Source: Acidobacteriota bacterium
Lineage (GTDB): Bacteria > Acidobacteriota > Terriglobia > Acidiferrales > UBA7541
Length of the DNA: 64,000 nt
Assembly: GCA_016201285.1 (NCBI GenBank)
Contig: JACQDE010000087.1
Span: 1 to 64,000 of the forward strand
Direction of reading: 5' to 3'
Below, piece after piece: positions 2,368 through 51,022 of this stretch. Positions within the stretch are counted from its first letter, which is position 1. Each line of letters begins with the position of its first letter. A program made the position numbers and the translations under genes. The notes under the pieces were generated by a model. That model ran no database searches and had not been told where the DNA came from. It saw only the letters and a program-made list of their open reading frames with translations.

Positions 2368-5004
2368 ATGAGCAAGTCCACAGGGGGTGCTGCAAGAGCG
2401 TTGCAGAGCCCCGAAGATCTGACTGGCGCGACCGTCGGGCGGTTCCTGATCCGCGCGCAGTTGGGCACGGGCGCAATGGGCGAGGTCTATCGCGCCGAAG
2501 ACACGGTGTTGAAGCGCACCGTGGCGCTGAAGCGCATCGCCCCCACGCTGCAAGCCGATCCCTACTATCGCGACCGCTTTCTCAAGGAGGCCGAGCGCGC
2601 CTCCAGCCTCACTCACTCTCGAATTGCCGGCATCTTCGACGTGCTGGAGGACCCGCACGGCACGTTTCTGGTGATGGAGTACGTCGAGGGGCAAACGCTG
2701 CGGCAGCGGCTGGGCCGGCCAATGGGCGTCACGGAATTCCTCGGCATCGCCAAGCAGTGCACCGAAGCGCTGGTGGCGGCGCACGAAAAACGCATCGTCC
2801 ACTGCGATATCAAACCGGAAAACATCCTGCTGACACCGAGCGGCGACGTGAAGGTGCTGGATTTCGGCGTGGCCAAGCGGCAGCCGAAAGCGGACGACGT
2901 CACATCGGCGGATACGCTGGACGAGACGCGGCTGAGCGTCGGCGGCACGTTCATTTACATGGCCCCGGAGGTCATGCTGGAACGCGTCATTGACCCGCGC
3001 TCCGACCTGTTTTCACTGGGCGTAGTGTTCTACGAGGCGCTGAGCGGGCGGCACCCGTTCCGCGCTGGGAGTCTCGCGGCGACAACGAATCGCGTTCTGC
3101 ACGAGCCGCCTGCTCCGCTCCGCGAAGTGATTCCCGATTCGCCGCCCGCGCTGAACCAGATCGTCGAGCGGCTGCTGGTGAAGGATCCTGCGGCACGCTA
3201 CGCGACAGCCGGCGATCTACTGGCGGACCTGCGCGCGTTCGAGCGCGGACTTCCGCTGGCGACGGCGCCGGTGCCAACGCTTCCGGCAGCGCCGCGCCGG
3301 TGGATTGTTTGGACCGCGGTGGCAGCCGGCGTGGTTTTGCTCGGCGCGCTGATGGCCGCGCTGCCGCCGGCCCGGCGGTGGGTGGCCGAACGAGCCGGCG
3401 TTGCCGTCATGCCGAGGGAAAAGCACGTCGCCGTGCTGCCGTTTGAGGTCGTGGGAGGGGACGCGCAGGCGCAGGCCTTCGCCGACGGGCTGACGTCCAC
3501 GCTGACGGCAAAACTCGCGCGGTTCACGCAGTCGCAGGCGCTGCAGGTGGTCCCCGCGAGCATCATTCGCAGAAGCCACGTGATGGACGCGGAAAAGGCG
3601 CGCACGGAGCTGGGCGTAAACCTGGTGCTGGAAGGCAGCCTGCACCAGCAGGGCGGCAGGGTGCGCGTGACCTATTCTCTGGTGGACGCGCGGAACCGGA
3701 GGGTGCTGCAGGCCGACAGCATCACCGAAGCCATGGCCGATCCCTTCGCGATGGAAGACCGCGTGGTGGACGGCGCGCTGCGGATGCTGGAGTTGAAGGT
3801 GCAACCGGAGGAGCGCGAGGTGTTAACCGCGCATGGAACCACCGTGGCCAGCGCTTACGATTTCTACCTTCGGGGTCGCGGCTACCTGCAAAATTACGAC
3901 AAGCCGGAAAATCTGGATGGCGCGGTCAGCGTGTTCGAGCAGGCGTTGAAGCTCGATCCTGACTATGCGCTTGCCTATGCTGGCCTGGGTGACGCGTACT
4001 GGCTGAAATACGAAGCGCACAACGAGGCGCGCTGGGTAGAGGCGTCGCGGAAAGCCTGCGAACGCGCACAGAGCCTGAATGCAAAACTGCCGGAAGCGCA
4101 CGTCTGCCTGGGCACGCTGCACGTCGGAACCGGGAAATATGAAATGGCGGTCCAGGCTTTCCAGAAAGCGCTGGAGACCGACGCGCTGAATGACGACGCG
4201 TATCGGGGGCTGGCGCGCGCCTACCAGCGGCTGGGCCAAGCGGCGGAGGCGGAGCAGGTCCTGCAGAAGGCGATCAGCGTGCGCCCGCACTACTGGGCCG
4301 GTTACAACTGGCTGGGCGTTTTTTATTGGCGCGAGGGACGCCTGGGCGAAGCCACGAAGATGTTCGAGCAGGTGGTGAAACTCACGCCGGATAGTTTCCA
4401 GGCGCACTACAACCTGGGAGCGATGTACCTGGTGCAGGGCCGGTATCCGGAGGCCATCACCACGCTGGAGCGCTCGATCGCGCTGCGGCCCACCGCTGAG
4501 GCGCACTCCAACCTGGCCACGGCCTATTTCGGCCTGCGGCAATACGCGGATGCGGCGCGAACCTACGAGCAGGCCCTGCAGATTGACCGGAGCGATTTCA
4601 TCGTCTGGGGCAACCTGGGTGAAGCCTATTACTGGGCGGAAGGCCGGCGTGGCGAGTCCGCCGAAGCATTCCGCAGGGCGATCGCGCTGGCCGAGGAGAA
4701 GCGGAAGGTCAACCCGCGCGACGCCTACGTGCTGGGCAACCTGGCGTTCTACCACGCGATGCGGGGGGAGAAAGAGGCGGCGCTCAATTTCCTCCGGCGC
4801 GGCTTCACAGCGGCGTCCAAGGGCGCGGGCGTGCAATTCAAGGCAGCGCTGGTGTACGCGCAATTCCGGGACACCGAACGGACGCTCGAATGGCTCGAGA
4901 AGGCCCTGGCGGCCGGCACGTCGGTTCCGACCGTCCGCGATCACCCGATTTTCGACTTCCTGCGGCAGGATCCGCGCTTCCAGCGGCTGTTGCAGAAGAA
5001 ATAG
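2368..5004 (+). CDS. transmembrane Ser/Thr protein kinase with FlgO-like and TPR domains
   Basis: This 878-residue protein has a cytoplasmic Hanks-type kinase domain at about residues 24-290: glycine loop GTGAMGEV near 34-40, invariant Lys55, catalytic loop HCDIKPEN (145-152), DFG at 165-167 and an APE motif. The usual HRD arginine is Cys, so it is a non-RD kinase. A transmembrane helix at about 312-335 follows, then a FlgO/TolB-like region (KHVAVLPFEVV onward, about 353-475) and roughly ten TPR units to the C-terminus. This kinase-TM-FlgO-TPR layout is common in Acidobacteriota, where it is presumed to sense extracytoplasmic signals. No clear Shine-Dalgarno precedes the ATG at 2368, which is the first in-frame start. 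Target proteins are not evident from the neighbours. Confidence 0.9.
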   Translation: MSKSTGGAARALQSPEDLTGATVGRFLIRAQLGTGAMGEVYRAEDTVLKRTVALKRIAPTLQADPYYRDRFLKEAERASSLTHSRIAGIFDVLEDPHGTFLVMEYVEGQTLRQRLGRPMGVTEFLGIAKQCTEALVAAHEKRIVHCDIKPENILLTPSGDVKVLDFGVAKRQPKADDVTSADTLDETRLSVGGTFIYMAPEVMLERVIDPRSDLFSLGVVFYEALSGRHPFRAGSLAATTNRVLHEPPAPLREVIPDSPPALNQIVERLLVKDPAARYATAGDLLADLRAFERGLPLATAPVPTLPAAPRRWIVWTAVAAGVVLLGALMAALPPARRWVAERAGVAVMPREKHVAVLPFEVVGGDAQAQAFADGLTSTLTAKLARFTQSQALQVVPASIIRRSHVMDAEKARTELGVNLVLEGSLHQQGGRVRVTYSLVDARNRRVLQADSITEAMADPFAMEDRVVDGALRMLELKVQPEEREVLTAHGTTVASAYDFYLRGRGYLQNYDKPENLDGAVSVFEQALKLDPDYALAYAGLGDAYWLKYEAHNEARWVEASRKACERAQSLNAKLPEAHVCLGTLHVGTGKYEMAVQAFQKALETDALNDDAYRGLARAYQRLGQAAEAEQVLQKAISVRPHYWAGYNWLGVFYWREGRLGEATKMFEQVVKLTPDSFQAHYNLGAMYLVQGRYPEAITTLERSIALRPTAEAHSNLATAYFGLRQYADAARTYEQALQIDRSDFIVWGNLGEAYYWAEGRRGESAEAFRRAIALAEEKRKVNPRDAYVLGNLAFYHAMRGEKEAALNFLRRGFTAASKGAGVQFKAALVYAQFRDTERTLEWLEKALAAGTSVPTVRDHPIFDFLRQDPRFQRLLQKK

Positions 5005-36570: not shown

Positions 36571-36784
36571 TCGAGCACCGTCCGCGGAAGCGAAGTTGCT
36601 ATGAAGTCAACCCGGATGCTATTCGCCGGGCATCATGCTGTCAATGGTACCTGAAAAACAGTGGCGAGTGACGAGTGGCGAGCCAGAACCGGCGAGTCAA
36701 AGTCTGGGAATCATCGCAACAGACGGAGGAAGCCAGCGGGTATAATGCGCGAGTGGATGTCAGAGATCTGATCGTGAAGCAGAA

Positions 36785-37009
36785 AGAGGCGGTTCGGCGG
36801 CCGCCGGCAGCGTCTCCGGCTCCGCCACAAAATTCTTCGTCATCAACGCCAGCGCCGAGCCCGGCTTGGCCACCTTTCGCTTCCGTTTGAAAGACGTGAA
36901 AATCCTTGCCGCCGAGGACGCCTTCGAGGCCGACAGCCAGAAATTCAATCCCGGCTCGTTCCTCATTCCCACCGACGCCAATCCGTCCCCAGCGTCTGCA
37001 CCGCGCTGA
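36785..37009 (+). pseudogene. remnant resembling an M14 carboxypeptidase accessory region
   Basis: One frame reads KFFVINASAEPGLATFRFRL followed by KDVKILAAEDAFEADSQKFNPGSFLIPTDANPS and a TGA at 37007-37009. The end of this segment resembles the region around EIFRARAAFQAGGKDYPAGSYVIP of the M14 protein at 27016. No start, signal or catalytic domain remains, so it looks like debris from a larger gene. The family assignment is tentative. Confidence 0.45.
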
Positions 37010-37120
37010 TGCGGTTCAGCGCGTCGTAGGTGAACGTCTTGGTGAAGCTCTGCGCGCCCGTCGCCGACCACGAGATCACGCAGGTCCACGGCGTGGATGC
37101 CGTGTTTCTCCCGCCAAGAA
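36985..37120 (-). pseudogene. Rhs/YD-repeat remnant
   Basis: On the minus strand one frame reads SWSATGAQSFTKTFTYDALN followed by RISAVQTLG, a clear YD-repeat (Rhs) signature. Only about one repeat survives, without start or C-terminal part, and it overlaps the end of the M14-like fragment on the other strand. It marks a recombined junction at the left edge of the A+T-rich island. Confidence 0.6.
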
Positions 37121-37127
37121 ATTCTCC

Positions 37128-37156
37128 TTGACATTAATATCCGAAGTTGATATGTT
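37128..37156 (+). promoter_or_regulatory. near-consensus promoter of the island operon
   Basis: TTGACA (37128-37133) is followed after exactly 17 nt by TATGTT (37151-37156). Transcription would start near 37163, about 33 nt before the ATG at 37196, which carries the strong ribosome-binding site GGAGGGAG. This is one of the best sigma70-type promoters in the window. Confidence 0.75.
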
Positions 37157-37195
37157 TTGACAGCGCCTTGTCAGACTCGCCGGAGGGAGTAAACC

Positions 37196-37804
37196 ATGTC
37201 CCTGCCGCGGCCAAACCAGCAGTGGATCACTCTCGTAATTTCGCTTTTCTTCACGACACTTTGCGGTTTCCTCTTAATCTCGCTCAGCGAACCAGTTTCT
37301 TGGCAACCTGGAGACAGGACCATCGTCACAGCCTCCGGCACGAGGCTTCAGGACCTTTTCCAAGGGCTCAGACCGAACAGACGTGCTTTGCTTACCCAAC
37401 CCGCTCCTTCGACCGCTGGGTGGTGCTCGAGAACGACCAATGGTCCTGCCTTCCTGCTGCGGACAAGCTATGAACCGCACCTAGGCTATGCTTTCTCTTC
37501 TGCGGATGCTGCACCACGATTCCGCTTAGTTCAGGGCGGATTCTGCAATGGCCACTACATGACCATGGATCTTCGATTCTGCAATGTGGATCAGAACGGA
37601 GAATGGTGTTACTACGACTGGTATTACGCAGATGCCACTTCGGCGCCCTATGGAGCCGGGTACACTGACGGCTTTCCGGTGTGCGACGGCGCGTGTAACA
37701 ATGAGGAAAGTTGCTGGAACGATTATGGTGGGGGCGGGGGTGGCTGTTGGTGTGGCGATCCGTCCCCTTGGTGGTACGACAATTGCCCGTGGTGGTGCTG
37801 GTAG
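37196..37804 (+). CDS. secreted protein with Cys/Trp/Gly-rich C-terminus
   Basis: A 202-residue protein I do not recognise. A hydrophobic segment (WITLVISLFFTTLCGFLLISL, residues 10-30) gives an export signal or anchor. A middle region of about 100 residues has ordinary composition. The last 90 residues hold most of the cysteines, spaced through FCNGHY, RFCNVD, EWCYYDWYY, VCDGACNNEESCW, GCWCG and the final CPWWCW, with a run of six glycines. Multiple disulphides, metal binding or enzyme-made cross-links are possible; none is shown. It has its own promoter and a strong binding site, is first of four co-directional genes, and has markedly lower G+C than the flanks. Confidence 0.75.
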   Translation: MSLPRPNQQWITLVISLFFTTLCGFLLISLSEPVSWQPGDRTIVTASGTRLQDLFQGLRPNRRALLTQPAPSTAGWCSRTTNGPAFLLRTSYEPHLGYAFSSADAAPRFRLVQGGFCNGHYMTMDLRFCNVDQNGEWCYYDWYYADATSAPYGAGYTDGFPVCDGACNNEESCWNDYGGGGGGCWCGDPSPWWYDNCPWWCW

Positions 37805-37856
37805 CAGCGAGTCTGGTCGCCGTTGGGGACGGCGCTTGAGGACGGAGGGTGACAAC

Positions 37857-38939
37857 ATGCGACGATTGAGTGCTTTGCTGTGTGCGGGTATCTTTCTTGG
37901 AGTGGCTAGCTCTTGGAGTCCCAATGCCAGAGCCCAGCAACCAAGCATCACCAGTTTACAACAAGAGCCGGTGACACGCGGGTTGGGCGAGCCACACCAT
38001 CGCCAGAGATTCGCCGAAGCAATCGCGCCCGGGAAACTTGTTCCTTATTGGGACAGAGGCTATCTTGTTGTCCGAGAAGACCCGGGCGCAGCTCAGGACG
38101 TCATTTTGTTCGATGCAAGGGGGCTTCGCGCTCGTGAGAGTAAGGTGCGGTTTGAAGGCGCAAGGGGTGTTCACGTCTCTTCTGCGGCTGTATCGGCAAC
38201 GGGCACGATTCTCACGTCAGGGTACGCATACAGTGCGGAGGGCGCACTTGCGTACTTCATTGCGCAGACCGATGTTGCGGGGAACGTGGCAGCGGTTGTG
38301 CGAACGAACCCATTTGTCCCCCTTCAAGTATGCGCCACTGCGGACGGGACAATCTGGAGTTTTGGCCATGAGTTAGAAAAGGAAGAAGCACACGAAGATT
38401 ACGCCATGCTTCGCCAGTACAGCTTCGGAAAGGGGCTTATTCGCGAGTTTTTGCTCCGCCATACGTTTCGTGCGCGCCTGTCGCCAGCGTTGGGCGGTGG
38501 TGGTTCAAGTCGTTCCTATCTTCGTTGCAACAATAACAAGGTCGCTCTATATGTGGATTCGACGAACGACTACATCGAGATCGACACCGCCACCTATGCC
38601 GTAGCCCGTTGGTGGGTTGACAAGCCCTCACTGGGGCGAATGAAGGTCCTCGGCTTTGCTTTCACTGACGATGGGCAAGTCTACGGAGATCTGTCGGAAG
38701 CGCTCAGCGGTGGGGATCCAGGCTGGACGGGAATATATGAACTCAGGCGGGATGTGGCCCCGGGGAGGGCCGCATGGCTGCCGGTTCCGGGAACGGTGAA
38801 ATACCTTAGTCACCGTCAAGCCATTCCTCGAGGGGCATTTCGGCACCTGTGGGGAGCCGATGGTAACAACCTGGTGATAACCATGGCTGGTGAGCCCAGC
38901 CTGAGTTGGGTGACTCCGCTAGTTGGTGGACGAGAATAG
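37857..38939 (+). CDS. exported protein, possibly beta-propeller
   Basis: This 360-residue protein has a signal peptide (LSALLCAGIFLGVASSWSPNARA, cleaved before QQPSI). The mature part is beta-rich with repeated motifs of about 45 residues (GYLVVREDPGAAQDVILFDARG, GYAYSAEGALAYFIAQTDVAG, LGFAFTDDGQVYGDL, IYELRRDVAPG), which suggests a propeller of six or so blades; I know no family name. No catalytic or metal motif stands out. The ATG at 37857 has GGAGG 10 nt upstream. It lies 53 nt after the Cys/Trp-rich gene and overlaps the following membrane-protein gene by 34 nt, so all are likely one transcript. Confidence 0.75.
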   Translation: MRRLSALLCAGIFLGVASSWSPNARAQQPSITSLQQEPVTRGLGEPHHRQRFAEAIAPGKLVPYWDRGYLVVREDPGAAQDVILFDARGLRARESKVRFEGARGVHVSSAAVSATGTILTSGYAYSAEGALAYFIAQTDVAGNVAAVVRTNPFVPLQVCATADGTIWSFGHELEKEEAHEDYAMLRQYSFGKGLIREFLLRHTFRARLSPALGGGGSSRSYLRCNNNKVALYVDSTNDYIEIDTATYAVARWWVDKPSLGRMKVLGFAFTDDGQVYGDLSEALSGGDPGWTGIYELRRDVAPGRAAWLPVPGTVKYLSHRQAIPRGAFRHLWGADGNNLVITMAGEPSLSWVTPLVGGRE

Positions 38940-40477
38940 GCAGATTACTCATCGACTCCTCTCCTCTTTTTGTCAGGACCGGTTTGCGCAAGGAAAACGC
39001 TGCATTCCTTGTCCTGGTGTTGACTAGCGCCATTGCCCTGTTGAGGGACATTTCAGTTCTGTTCCGGTACCCGGTTGCAGTCGGTCTTGACGGATATTAC
39101 TATGTCCAGCAGGTCAACAGTGTACTAGGGGGAGGCAAACTCTATTACCCCACTTGGGCTCCGCTCGTCATCTATTTTCTGGCGCCCCTTTCACGGATCG
39201 CTGGAGTCGTCCCGGGAATCAAAATAGCAAGCCTATTCTTTCATCTTTTCCTTTGCTTGGGCGTGTATGCTGTGGTTGCTGAGGCGCTGGGCTCTCGCTG
39301 GTTTGGCGTCTTGGCCTATGGCATAGCCGCCAGCAGTGCGCTTCACTTTTACTTCGTCGGGGAATTCCTCCGCGAGACCGCAGCGCTCGCGCTTCTGGCG
39401 TGGGGTTGTTGCAGCTTACTAAAAGCTGCAACCGGGGAGCGACGACGAAGAGATTGGCTTCTTCTTTCGTTACTCTTGTTTCTTGCGGCATTCTTCAGTC
39501 ACATTTCTGCTCTCCTCTATTTGTGTTTGGGTGTACTTCTTTGGTGTCTGTTGCGGGTTCTAATCTGCACCGCCAGTTCAAGAATGGCTAGATGGTTGAC
39601 TTTTGTTTCCGTGTTGGTCTTGTGGAGTTTGCCATGCTTGCTGGCAAACCAACGCCTGCTGACCCTTCCTGAATGGCTTGGTTCCGAGTTCTTGCCGAGG
39701 CCGCAGTCCCCTATAGGCGGCATCGGCTGGGCCGAGAAGGTTGTGGCTCTAGTGGCTGTGCCTACTTATGCTGCCATCTCGATATCCCGAAGGACTTATT
39801 TGAAGAACACAGCAGCTTTCTATACCGCATCAATCTCAGCAATAGCCTGTGCGATCCTTACACTTAACCCTTTCTTGAATTACTCAATTGGGACGGTGGG
39901 TCTCACCGGACGGCTGGGAAACTTGGTTCACCTCTATGTCGCCGTTTTGATTCCTGCCGTCATTTCTTCTTTTCGGCAGTCTAAGCTATCCGTCGCCCAC
40001 AGCTTCGCTGCCATTCCTGTGATTTCCCTTTTGGCGCTGGCTGCTTTAGAGCCGCTCCCCAGGGGCCTCCGCCCTGACTACTTGTGGGACCGGCAACAAT
40101 TAATCGTGCAACTTCCTCGCGTGCGCACATGCCTGGAACCGCATTCGATCGTCCTTGCACCGCACGGCGATCAATTTGTCTTCACAGCGACGCTGGGGGT
40201 TCCATCGCAATGGGAATGGCCAAGCGACGCTGGACGTTGGCGCGTTCTTTGGTTCCTGCGGAGGGTCAGCGGGGACCTACTCAATCCCTCTATGACAATC
40301 GTTACGGGGGACGAACGGCTGGCTAATGTGCTCGTGAAAGATGGAGACCTGCGCATCGCGCTCAAATCATTCCAAACAAATCAGAGGGAATACCTTTTCC
40401 GGAATAATCCGCATCTGTACGCTGCCCTCCATGGTATTTCCCACGCTCCCTTTCTTGTGCGGCATCGAGAATTGTAG
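38906..40477 (+). CDS. polytopic membrane protein, putative GT-C-fold glycosyltransferase
   Basis: A 523-residue protein with about 10-11 transmembrane helices in residues 35-410 and a C-terminal extracytoplasmic domain of about 110 residues. The first external loop carries GLDGYYYVQQVNS, an acidic-loop pattern like the catalytic loop of GT-C (PMT/ArnT/PglB-type) enzymes that use lipid-linked sugars. Hydrophobic helices such as LLLSLLLFLAAFFSHISALLY follow. The assignment rests on topology and this loop only. The start appears to be TTG at 38906, inside the 3' end of the previous gene; no stronger start exists downstream before the first helix. The low G+C matches its operon partners. Confidence 0.65.
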   Translation: MGDSASWWTRIGRLLIDSSPLFVRTGLRKENAAFLVLVLTSAIALLRDISVLFRYPVAVGLDGYYYVQQVNSVLGGGKLYYPTWAPLVIYFLAPLSRIAGVVPGIKIASLFFHLFLCLGVYAVVAEALGSRWFGVLAYGIAASSALHFYFVGEFLRETAALALLAWGCCSLLKAATGERRRRDWLLLSLLLFLAAFFSHISALLYLCLGVLLWCLLRVLICTASSRMARWLTFVSVLVLWSLPCLLANQRLLTLPEWLGSEFLPRPQSPIGGIGWAEKVVALVAVPTYAAISISRRTYLKNTAAFYTASISAIACAILTLNPFLNYSIGTVGLTGRLGNLVHLYVAVLIPAVISSFRQSKLSVAHSFAAIPVISLLALAALEPLPRGLRPDYLWDRQQLIVQLPRVRTCLEPHSIVLAPHGDQFVFTATLGVPSQWEWPSDAGRWRVLWFLRRVSGDLLNPSMTIVTGDERLANVLVKDGDLRIALKSFQTNQREYLFRNNPHLYAALHGISHAPFLVRHREL

Positions 40478-40498
40478 TCGAGGTAGGACTAACCGGAA

Positions 40499-41059
40499 AT
40501 GGGATCACGACTTAGACGCTATCGCGTCCCTTCGCTGCTGTTCGCAACAGGCGCCCTCGTTTTCGTGGGGTTGTCCGTGGCAAATACCATTGTGCCCCAG
40601 GGAATCATTGTGCATCACTCCGCCGTTCCTACGCCCGCAACTGGGGATTTCTCCCAGTACGTTGAATATCTGAAACGAATTCATAAAGCGAGGGGATTCG
40701 GGGTCTTCTACTGGGGCAGAATCTACTACCTCGGCTACCATTACGTTATTCTACCTGACGGAACCATATCCCAAGGACGCCCTGAGCGGGCACGCGGGGC
40801 TCACGCGGCGGCTTACAACTCGTATATCGGAATCTGCCTGGTCGGGGACTTTAGCAGCGCTCAAAACCCCACGGGGACTATGGGACTTCAGGAGCCGACC
40901 CAAGCTCAAATCCAGAGCCTGGTCAGACTGGTGCGAGAGCTAAGGTCCCGATACGCAATTCCGCCAGAAAGAATCCTCCTCCATCGTCAAGTTGACCGCG
41001 ATACGCAATGTCCCGGAGACAGGTTCCCGGTTGCGTTTTTCACGGCACGAATTCAGTAG
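40499..41059 (+). CDS. membrane-anchored N-acetylmuramoyl-L-alanine amidase (Amidase_2/PGRP)
   Basis: This 186-residue amidase cleaves the bond between MurNAc and L-alanine in peptidoglycan. After a hydrophobic N-terminus (LLFATGALVFVGLSVANTIV) come the zinc ligands of the Amidase_2 fold: His in IIVHHSA, His in ILLHRQV and Cys in TQCPGD. GYHYVILPDGTISQGRP and the GICLVGDF strand are also typical. The conserved Tyr of T7-lysozyme-like amidases appears in the GYHYVI region. The ATG at 40499 lies 21 nt after the GT-C-like gene, so it closes the four-gene unit. It could remodel the wall for export or attachment of the operon's products; that is inference. Confidence 0.85.
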   Translation: MGSRLRRYRVPSLLFATGALVFVGLSVANTIVPQGIIVHHSAVPTPATGDFSQYVEYLKRIHKARGFGVFYWGRIYYLGYHYVILPDGTISQGRPERARGAHAAAYNSYIGICLVGDFSSAQNPTGTMGLQEPTQAQIQSLVRLVRELRSRYAIPPERILLHRQVDRDTQCPGDRFPVAFFTARIQ

Positions 41060-41168: not shown

Positions 41169-41470
41169 AAAAGGCCGCTTTCTCAGGCATAACTGCGTTG
41201 TCGAAGCGTAGTTGATGCCGACAGAGAGGCGGCCTTTTCCATGACAGAGTGTGGCCAGTGGCAGTTCGAGTTTGAAGCGCATTTTCGCGGCAGGTGGTGG
41301 GGCGGTTTGACAGCAGCCCGTTGACGACCGACGGCGGCGCGTTGTTGCTGCGCCAAGTGGACAGGAAAATCGGACTGCTCAAGCGATTGGTGGACGGCTT
41401 CCGCGATGCCCGCCAGCCGGAGCGCCGCCTTGTTAACTGGTTGTCTCTGGGTCTGCCCAGTCTCACTTGA
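41169..41470 (+). mobile_element. truncated, frameshifted IS1380-family transposase remnant
   Basis: ATG at 41241 opens MTECGQWQFEFEAHFRGR, then a one-base deletion near 41289 shifts the frame to QVVGRFDSSPLTTDGGALLL and on to LRQVDRKIGLL ... FRDARQPERR, ending at TGA 41468-41470. This is the conserved N-terminus of IS1380-type (DDE) transposases; the remaining 350 or so residues are absent. A 10-bp inverted repeat, AAAAGGCCGC (41169-41178) and GCGGCCTTTT (41229-41238), precedes the start and may be part of the element's left end. Non-functional. Confidence 0.72.
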
Positions 41471-48636: not shown

Positions 48637-50253
48637 CTATTTGCCGCCAGCGCTCTGGTTGGGCCGCTGTGCGCCGGGGCCGAGCAGAATCTGCCCGGAA
48701 TGCGCGCCGGTGTGTTTGCCGCCTTCGATCACCACTTCCCCGTTCACTAGGACGTAGCGGAATCCCGCCGCGTAGGCGTGCGGCTTTTCGAAGGTGGCCG
48801 TGTCGGCGACGGCTTTTTCATCGAAGACGACGATATCCGCCCACATGCCCGGACGGATCAGGCCGCGCTCGGTGAGCCGGAAGCGCTGTGCCGGCAGCGA
48901 GGTCATCTTGCGGATGGCTTCTTCGAGTCGCACCACGTTTTTCTCGCGGATGTAGCGCCCGAGCACGCGGGCGTTGGTGCCGTAGCTGCGCGGGTGCGGG
49001 ACGCCGCGGCCCATTTCCTGCACCCCGCCGTCGGACGCGACCATCGAGTACGGGAAACGCAGGATGCGCTCGACGTCGCGCTCGTCCATCGAGTGATAGA
49101 CCATCTGCGCGCCGCCCTTTTCCGTCATTTCGAGCACGGTCTGGATTTCGTCCTCGAGCTTGCCCTTTCTTCCCTTCTCCTTGTTGATCAGCGCGATGCT
49201 CTTGCCCTCGAGCGAATTGTCCCAGGGGCAGGAGGCGACTACGGCGTAGTCGAGCCGCTTGCGGCCGTTGCGCTTGTTGATTGTCTCTTTCATCTCTCCG
49301 GCAATCTTCTTGCGCGTGGCCGGATCGGCGAGCCGCTTCTTGATGGCTTCCTGTCCATCGGCGAGCGCCCACGACGGCAGCAGCACGCCCAGGTTGGTGC
49401 TCGACGCGGTGTAGGGATACTGGTCCACGGTGACGTCAATCCCCTCGGCGCGCGCTTTTTCCACCAGCTCGATGGTCTTCGCGCTCTGTCCCCAGAATTT
49501 TTTGTTGGACACTTTGAAGTGCGAAATCTCGACCGGCATGGCGGCTTCGCGGCCGACGGTGATGGCCTCGTTGATGGCGTCGAAGACGTGCTCGCCCTCA
49601 TCGCGCATGTGCGATGCGTACACGCCGTTGTACTTCGCCGCCGCACGGGCCAGCGCGACCACTTCCGGCGTCTTCGAGTACGTGCCGGGGATGTAGATGA
49701 GTCCGGTGGAAAAGCCCACGGCTCCCTGGCGCATGGCCTGCCCGACCAGTGCTTCCATCCGGGACTGCTCGTCGGGGGTGGGGTCGCGCTGCTCGCTGCC
49801 CATGATCTCGCGCCGCACGCTGTTGTGACCGATCAGCGTGCCCAGGTTGATGGAAATCTTTCCGCGCAGCCCGCCGAAAAATTTGTCGAGGTCGGTTTCC
49901 GAGCCGCCGCAATTTCCGGTGATGATCGAAGTGACGCCGTCGAAGAGATAGTTGTCGGCGGTCGGGATGCGCGCGATGCCGCCTTCGACGTGTGTGTGGA
50001 CGTCAATGAAACCTGGCGCGACGATGAGGTCCTTCGCATCAATCGTGCGCTTGGCCGGACAGTTTCCGCCGTTGCACAGCCGCCCGATGGCCGCGATGCG
50101 CCCGTCTTTGATGCCCACGTCGGCGACGTACCAGGGATTGCCGCTGCCATCCACGATCCGGCCGTTCTGAATCACGACGTCATACGTCGTCGCCTGCGCC
50201 CACGCCACCGGCGCAAGGAAAAGGAGTAGAGCGAAAATAATCAGCTTCTTCAT
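48637..50253 (-). CDS. exported N-acyl-D-amino-acid deacylase (D-aminoacylase)
   Basis: A 538-residue amidohydrolase with a signal peptide (LIIFALLLFLAPVAWAQ). Metal-binding motifs are FIDVHTHVEGG near the start and a core HMRDEGEHVFDAINEA, EISHFKVSNKKFWG and DVTVDQYPYTAS, all features of D-aminoacylase/D-glutamate deacetylase enzymes that free D-amino acids from N-acyl derivatives. The C-terminal ERGLIRPGMWADIVVFDEKA strand is also conserved. It lies among murein recycling genes, so N-acyl-D-amino acids derived from peptidoglycan are plausible substrates. The ATG at 50253 starts the signal peptide, while the frame is open to 50334. Confidence 0.92.
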   Translation of the reverse strand: MKKLIIFALLLFLAPVAWAQATTYDVVIQNGRIVDGSGNPWYVADVGIKDGRIAAIGRLCNGGNCPAKRTIDAKDLIVAPGFIDVHTHVEGGIARIPTADNYLFDGVTSIITGNCGGSETDLDKFFGGLRGKISINLGTLIGHNSVRREIMGSEQRDPTPDEQSRMEALVGQAMRQGAVGFSTGLIYIPGTYSKTPEVVALARAAAKYNGVYASHMRDEGEHVFDAINEAITVGREAAMPVEISHFKVSNKKFWGQSAKTIELVEKARAEGIDVTVDQYPYTASSTNLGVLLPSWALADGQEAIKKRLADPATRKKIAGEMKETINKRNGRKRLDYAVVASCPWDNSLEGKSIALINKEKGRKGKLEDEIQTVLEMTEKGGAQMVYHSMDERDVERILRFPYSMVASDGGVQEMGRGVPHPRSYGTNARVLGRYIREKNVVRLEEAIRKMTSLPAQRFRLTERGLIRPGMWADIVVFDEKAVADTATFEKPHAYAAGFRYVLVNGEVVIEGGKHTGAHSGQILLGPGAQRPNQSAGGK

Positions 50254-50337
50254 GGAACACCCCCAAGGAATCTCTGACGCGGCAGCGACGGCCTGCGTCT
50301 CACGATCGTGGCAGGCCGCCTTGCGGAAGAGCACCTA

Positions 50338-50967
50338 TCATTTTTGTTGAGCAGGACGCAAGGAAGCGGGCGAAAAGGCAAAATACAAGAATAACCAGAG
50401 TGCGCTGAAAGCAATCCAAGGCCAAACGGTGCTGATCTTACGATCCATCATGACTGAGGACCAAAGGGCCCACGACGCAAAGCTCGAAATGAGAATCAGC
50501 TTCAAATGAGCAAGAAGACTAGGTGCATATCGGTGATGGCAGTGCGGACAGACAATCTTCCAAGGAGGTATGAACGCCTTTGCTGGGATCAGGTCTCCGC
50601 ACTTCTGGCAGGGCCAATCACCACGGGCTATCTCTTTGCCAGCAACAAGCTTTAGGTAGAACCTGGCAGTTAGAATCGCTATCAAATATCCGGTTATCAA
50701 GATGCCAAACCACCACAGCGGATCGGAGAGAATATTGGAATGCTGAAAGTCAAAGACGAGGGCGTCGAGTGAAGCGTAAAGACCTGCTGAGAGTAATGCT
50801 CCAACGGCGACCGCACTGCCATAACTCTCGCCGGTCGCATAGATTTCCGCATCGCATTGAGCGCACTTCCATTTGAGCAGTTTGAAAATCAGGCGAGTGC
50901 GGAAAGGTGTGCCACATTGCGGACAGTGGAGCTCAACACGGAACAGGAGAGTGTCCATCACGTTCAC
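50338..50967 (-). CDS. zinc-ribbon/rubredoxin-like membrane protein of unknown function
   Basis: A 209-residue protein with four CxxC pairs: HCPQCGTPFRTR, WKCAQCDAEIY, WPCQKCGDLI and IVCPHCHHRY. They bracket transmembrane helices (VGALLSAGLYASLDALVF, PLWWFGILITGYLIAILTA) with two more at the C-terminus. The pairs suggest two cytoplasmic zinc sites. I do not know the family. ATG at 50967 or at 50958 (MDTLLF) could be used. G+C is visibly lower than in both neighbours, which suggests separate acquisition. It is not closely linked to the D-aminoacylase gene functionally, although it lies upstream on the same strand. Confidence 0.65.
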   Translation of the reverse strand: MNVMDTLLFRVELHCPQCGTPFRTRLIFKLLKWKCAQCDAEIYATGESYGSAVAVGALLSAGLYASLDALVFDFQHSNILSDPLWWFGILITGYLIAILTARFYLKLVAGKEIARGDWPCQKCGDLIPAKAFIPPWKIVCPHCHHRYAPSLLAHLKLILISSFASWALWSSVMMDRKISTVWPWIAFSALWLFLYFAFSPASLRPAQQK

Positions 50968-51022
50968 AAATTATCCCTCCGGCCAATTAATCGGAAGCTT
51001 ATCACAAAAGGGATTGGTCAGA

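Follow-up and report, generated by a model that had tools for sequence, protein, structure and literature searches.

Do four closely spaced genes on a contig of a soil acidobacterium form a functional unit, and if so, which task could they share? The genes, referred to as A, B, C, and D, are located on the plus strand at positions 37196–41059 of the stretch of DNA analyzed (64,000 nt, in the following the window). A first-pass annotation had described them as coding for a Cys/Trp-rich exported protein, a further exported protein, a membrane protein, and an amidase, and all four open reading frames (ORFs) were found as described.

Layout and base composition of the island

The distances between neighboring genes amount to 52 nt (A/B), −34 nt (B/C, an overlap), and 21 nt (C/D), and purine-rich ribosome-binding sequences lie directly 5′ of A, B, and D. 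A consensus scan located a sigma-70-like promoter match (TTGACA-17-TATGTT) at 37128–37156 of the plus strand, where the first-pass annotation had placed a promoter of the island. The motif is present, at a frequency no better than chance: two sites of this type were found versus 1.9 expected, and the match is therefore not evidence on its own. An Rfam search gave no match, and the repeats within the island were short and chance-like.

The island has a G+C content of 0.52–0.57 versus about 0.60–0.69 in most flanking kilobases, which agrees with the earlier reading that it is lower in G+C than both flanks. The GC3 values of the four genes were 0.56–0.61 versus 0.81 ± 0.06. For codon usage, their z scores ranged from about −4.0 to −4.8, lower in all four than in each of the 33 other window genes; the codon usage of the host was not seen in any of the four. 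Homologues of B in several other genomes are likewise low in GC3, so that the low G+C content is partly a family trait and not due to a recent donor alone. A second low-G+C pocket lies at 50300–51000 (G+C 0.54 for 50001–51000), in which an apparent small zinc-ribbon membrane protein was read by eye on the minus strand.

The same site in a genome of the same genus

In a genome of the same genus (G002), the flanks align with those of the window, and the middle is occupied by genes for DinB and a methyltransferase in place of A–D. The flank genes common to both comprise a PilZ gene on the left and a small basic ORF, an unnamed gene, and a BadF-type ATPase gene on the right. In the window, a likely DinB stub is followed by a piece with 86% identity to another place of its own genome and by a scrap of an Rhs gene. 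Next come A–D and, last, the beginning of a transposase gene. The probable DinB-like 5′ stub (36751–36799, plus strand) was recognized by a short, merely suggestive peptide match (LIVKQKEAVRR versus LFCKQKEAIRR in the DinB protein of G002, where the gene is intact).

The remaining debris was assigned in part. The piece at 36795–36984 (plus strand) is 84–86% identical to places in its own genome (86% to G000:C56) and in the genome of the same genus; it matched no Pfam family, and its earlier designation as M14-like was not confirmed. The Rhs/YD-repeat remnant at 36983–37073 (minus strand) reads VISWSATGAQSFTKTFTYDALNRISAVQTLG and has short DNA matches elsewhere in its own genome; its match to RHS_repeat (E 0.0067) is below the family cut-off. 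On the right, the truncated IS1380-type transposase of the first-pass annotation was verified by Pfam (41300–41470, plus strand), as it covers profile positions 14–53 of 435 of DDE_Tnp_1_4 with an E value of 4.7e-6.

The four genes thus replace the DinB-methyltransferase segment kept in G002. Horizontal acquisition of A–D, as proposed earlier, is supported by this different site content together with the codon usage.

The exported proteins A and B

Gene A (37196–37804, plus strand) codes for a Cys/Trp-rich, predicted exported protein of 202 aa. It has a single N-terminal hydrophobic helix, a DLFQGLRP motif, and a Cys-rich C-terminal part. The structure model of A (pLDDT 42) was too poor to show a fold and was not usable.

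Gene B (37857–38939, plus strand) codes for a predicted exported protein of 360 aa, for which a model with a pLDDT of 80 and a pTM of 0.80 was obtained. Its 24 strands were read as six blades, so that the suspected propeller is borne out at the level of the model. The closest structural matches are six-bladed propellers of the NHL/SMP-30 type with a fold like that of the B model; B differs from them by an identity of 8–15%, its export, its pairing with A, and the lack of a Pfam match. Searches of A and B against Pfam, NCBIfam, and PADLOC gave no match. Relatives of B with 25–40% identity are scattered over genomes of the family and the phylum; none were found in the viral contigs searched, and relatives of neither B nor C were found in the plasmids searched.

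A Cys-rich gene on the same strand lies directly 5′ of B homologues at six loci in five genomes (L041, L042, L043, L044, L046, and L049), and a Cys-rich ORF is also present upstream of the B homologue of L051. The background density of such Cys-rich ORFs in the fetched DNA was approximately 0.05 per strand-kb. Most A relatives have in common a post-signal motif, G.{3,6}[VIL]F.G[ILVM].P, which the other ORFs in the scanned loci did not contain; the copy in L042 lacks the N-terminal motif part. A profile of A found its own members with E values of 1e-33 to 1e-71, as expected because these had been used to build it. Outside its build, it matched the A genes of L049 (E 7e-5) and, weakly, of L046 (E 0.025). 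The A gene of L044 (2858–3348) is split across two frames, owing either to an assembly frameshift or to gene decay. In G058, the start of B is disturbed and A is not evident, and the more distant B relatives are devoid of A. A and B thus represent a conserved pair that occurs at no fewer than six other loci in the phylum. A possible parallel is offered by Bacteroides, in which NVEALA peptides adjoin propellers.

The membrane protein C and the amidase D

Gene C (38906–40477, plus strand) codes for a polytopic membrane protein of 523 aa with at least nine hydrophobic spans in a simple scan. The listed TTG start is uncertain, since the relative in G158 begins near the stop of B. Initial searches were unproductive: with C as query, neither the genome contig scan nor an early search of 150 relatives gave a true relative. 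Relatives of C surfaced only after wider neighborhoods of B homologues had been fetched. In C and these relatives, the sequence GxDGY[YF]Y is invariant; this acidic motif follows the first membrane span and is placed in the first outer loop. C combines this motif with a polytopic architecture, both of which are features of the GT-C superfamily. Two of five C relatives matched PMT_2 (best E 2.8e-8), and C of the window itself was above the cut-off of no Pfam family. The earlier designation as GT-C-like is therefore upheld through the relatives and the invariant motif rather than through a family match of C, which is probably a GT-C protein.

With protein O-mannosyltransferases and the GT-C superfamily (PMT_2), C shares its polytopic build and an acidic motif, which reads GxDGYYY in C. 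C differs from them in having no characterized relative, and a sequence search retrieved no solved structure related to C. Six weaker C matches (G586, G560, G643, G645, G544, and G540) were discarded; they have a generic GT-C look, and neither Cys-rich genes nor A, B, or D relatives are found next to them.

Gene D (40499–41059, plus strand) codes for a protein of 186 aa with one hydrophobic span, a presumable membrane anchor. It belongs to the Amidase_2 family (T7 lysozyme/PGRP type; E 8.3e-23, 81.6 bits at a cut-off of 26) and also matches solved amidases, which confirms the assignment to a cell wall amidase family. H39, Y80, H162, T169, and C171 are invariant between D and its relative in G595. 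With T7 lysozyme and PGRP-LB as references, we take H39, H162, and C171 to be the zinc ligands and Y80 and T169 to belong to the active site; D appears to keep the positions expected of an active enzyme. It shares the family and these positions with N-acetylmuramoyl-L-alanine amidases of the T7 lysozyme/PGRP type and differs from them by its own membrane anchor and its operon with C.

Recurrence of partial gene sets

In G158, a genome from another, distant family, A, B, and C occur in the order of the window with short gaps, and C is 34% identical to C of the window over 462 aa (E 1e-74). There, the 3′ part of a transposase-like gene directly precedes the three genes, and EutN/CcmL microcompartment genes directly follow them (L049:3-398 and 3629-4252). 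Three further close C relatives (G595, G315, and G638) all belong to one other family. In G595, a D relative with 51% identity to D of the window follows 2 nt after C. In G315, the gene for a protein with 44 Cys is located downstream of C, next to ankyrin and thioredoxin genes; this protein (388 aa, L095:8959-10125) contains acidic double-disulfide repeats. In G638, a thioredoxin-rhodanese gene precedes C, and the contig, which is short, carries no Cys-rich gene. With the mau-like genes of G595 described below, the neighbors of C are mostly disulfide-rich or thiol-redox proteins.

The complete A–D set was found only in this window among the genomes searched, so that it is the overlapping pairs and triples elsewhere on which any case for a system of four genes is built. 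The first-pass annotation had proposed a joint unit, to be checked by looking for all four genes together in other genomes. The full set did not recur; the A-B pairs, the A-B-C triple of G158, and the C-D pair of G595 did, which supports a functional unit and differs from genes scattered without a conserved neighborhood. The recurring neighbors point to a shared task: the making, decorating, or placing of an exported disulfide-rich protein and its propeller partner. Most A-B loci have neither C nor D nearby, and C and D are therefore not needed for A-B everywhere.

Alternatively, C and D might act alone on envelope glycans or peptidoglycan, their location behind Cys-rich and propeller genes reflecting a co-transfer of cassettes. 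Such independence would fit the many A-B loci devoid of C and D, the occurrence of C in G638, and the common and widespread nature of the amidase family of D. We consider it rather unlikely, given that, of the five close members found, four (window, G158, G595, and G315) have a Cys-rich protein gene near C.

Comparison with methylamine dehydrogenase

The C-D pair of G595 directly follows MauA-, MauB-, MauD-, and MauE-like genes. The propeller protein upstream of C matched Me-amine-dh_H (1e-9), and the MauA-like Cys-rich protein matched Me-amine-dh_L (9e-7) and, in a phmmer search, a solved methylamine dehydrogenase (MADH) light chain (1.3e-9). MauE was matched with 1.5e-28; the match of the MauD-type thioredoxin (6.6e-34) remained below the equivalog cut-off. 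In the 15 kb of fetched DNA, no ORF was recognized as a MauG gene. The mau-like cluster (L096:5923-14095) also contains a DsbD-type gene, an ankyrin gene, and a gene for a 90-aa protein with 13 Cys, followed by C and D.

Like A and B, mau clusters code for a small Cys-rich exported protein and an exported propeller protein. An assignment of A and B to the MADH subunits was rejected at the sequence level. A and four relatives gave no family at E ≤ 1 and no Me-amine-dh_L match, and an hhalign comparison of A with the MauA-like protein of G595 gave a probability of 0.2. B and its relatives gave no Me-amine-dh_H match, the hhalign probability for B and the G595 propeller was 7.6, and B was modeled with six blades, not seven. 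The mau likeness is therefore one of gene context. Described mau clusters, as far as we know, include neither GT-C nor amidase genes.

These data bear on the possibility that A and B correspond to the two subunits, small and large, of a distant MADH-like periplasmic enzyme with a Trp/Cys-derived cofactor in A, and that C and D form a maturation module shared with the G595 cluster. The place of C-D in G595 and the MauA/MauB-like character of a Cys/Trp-rich protein next to a propeller speak for it. It is nevertheless improbable in view of the family and profile comparisons and the blade number, and no MauD- or MauE-like gene was recognized beside A–D in the window.

Proposed roles at the cell envelope

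The reading we favor, which is plausible but far from assured, is that A–D were horizontally acquired as an envelope operon of two interlocking parts, A-B and C-D, with the transferase C and the amidase D serving a disulfide-rich protein A and its propeller B. A would be exported by its own N-terminal hydrophobic signal and its Cys-rich domain held by disulfides. B would be its exported six-bladed partner, the two pairing outside the membrane. C may glycosylate A or B with a sugar that it receives, on the outer side of the inner membrane, from a polyprenyl carrier. Beside it, D, as a membrane-anchored zinc amidase, would trim peptidoglycan and thereby open or prepare the wall for placement or anchoring of the complex. 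More doubtful is the broader proposal that A-B stands for an undescribed class of exported complexes of a disulfide-rich protein and a six-bladed propeller in Acidobacteriota, and that C-D is a dedicated maturation module that also serves MADH-like complexes.

The first-pass interpretation, an acquired unit that exports, modifies, or anchors the Cys/Trp-rich product at the envelope, is thus partly supported; that C and D export, modify, or anchor A is what we infer. A limited literature search (MADH or GT-C in Acidobacteria, Cys-rich/propeller clusters, and MauE) retrieved no description of this gene set, in line with the statement of the first-pass annotation that no such system was known. 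If correct, the envelope operon would define a mobile cassette with which soil bacteria that have been little studied make disulfide-rich protein/propeller complexes and place them at their envelope. It would further link such proteins, MADH-like ones included, to an amidase and an orphan GT-C enzyme, and make the envelope maturation of these complexes directly testable.

A function in antagonism or colonization, with a released disulfide-rich A acting on competitors and B and D assisting its release, appears still less probable. A is small, fast-diverging, Cys-rich, and exported, its distribution is patchy, a wall amidase adjoins A-B-C, and mobile-element traces are found both in the window and next to A in G158. 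Against such a role, no toxin or defense family was matched, an exported propeller is unlike a typical immunity protein, and no D was recovered alongside A-B in other genomes. Finally, a chance assembly of neighbors with no joint function at a debris-filled site is highly improbable; the debris on both sides and the single occurrence of the full set would agree with it, but it is largely refuted by the recurrence of A-B, A-B-C, and C-D in separate genomes, and the four genes share tight spacing and a foreign codon usage.
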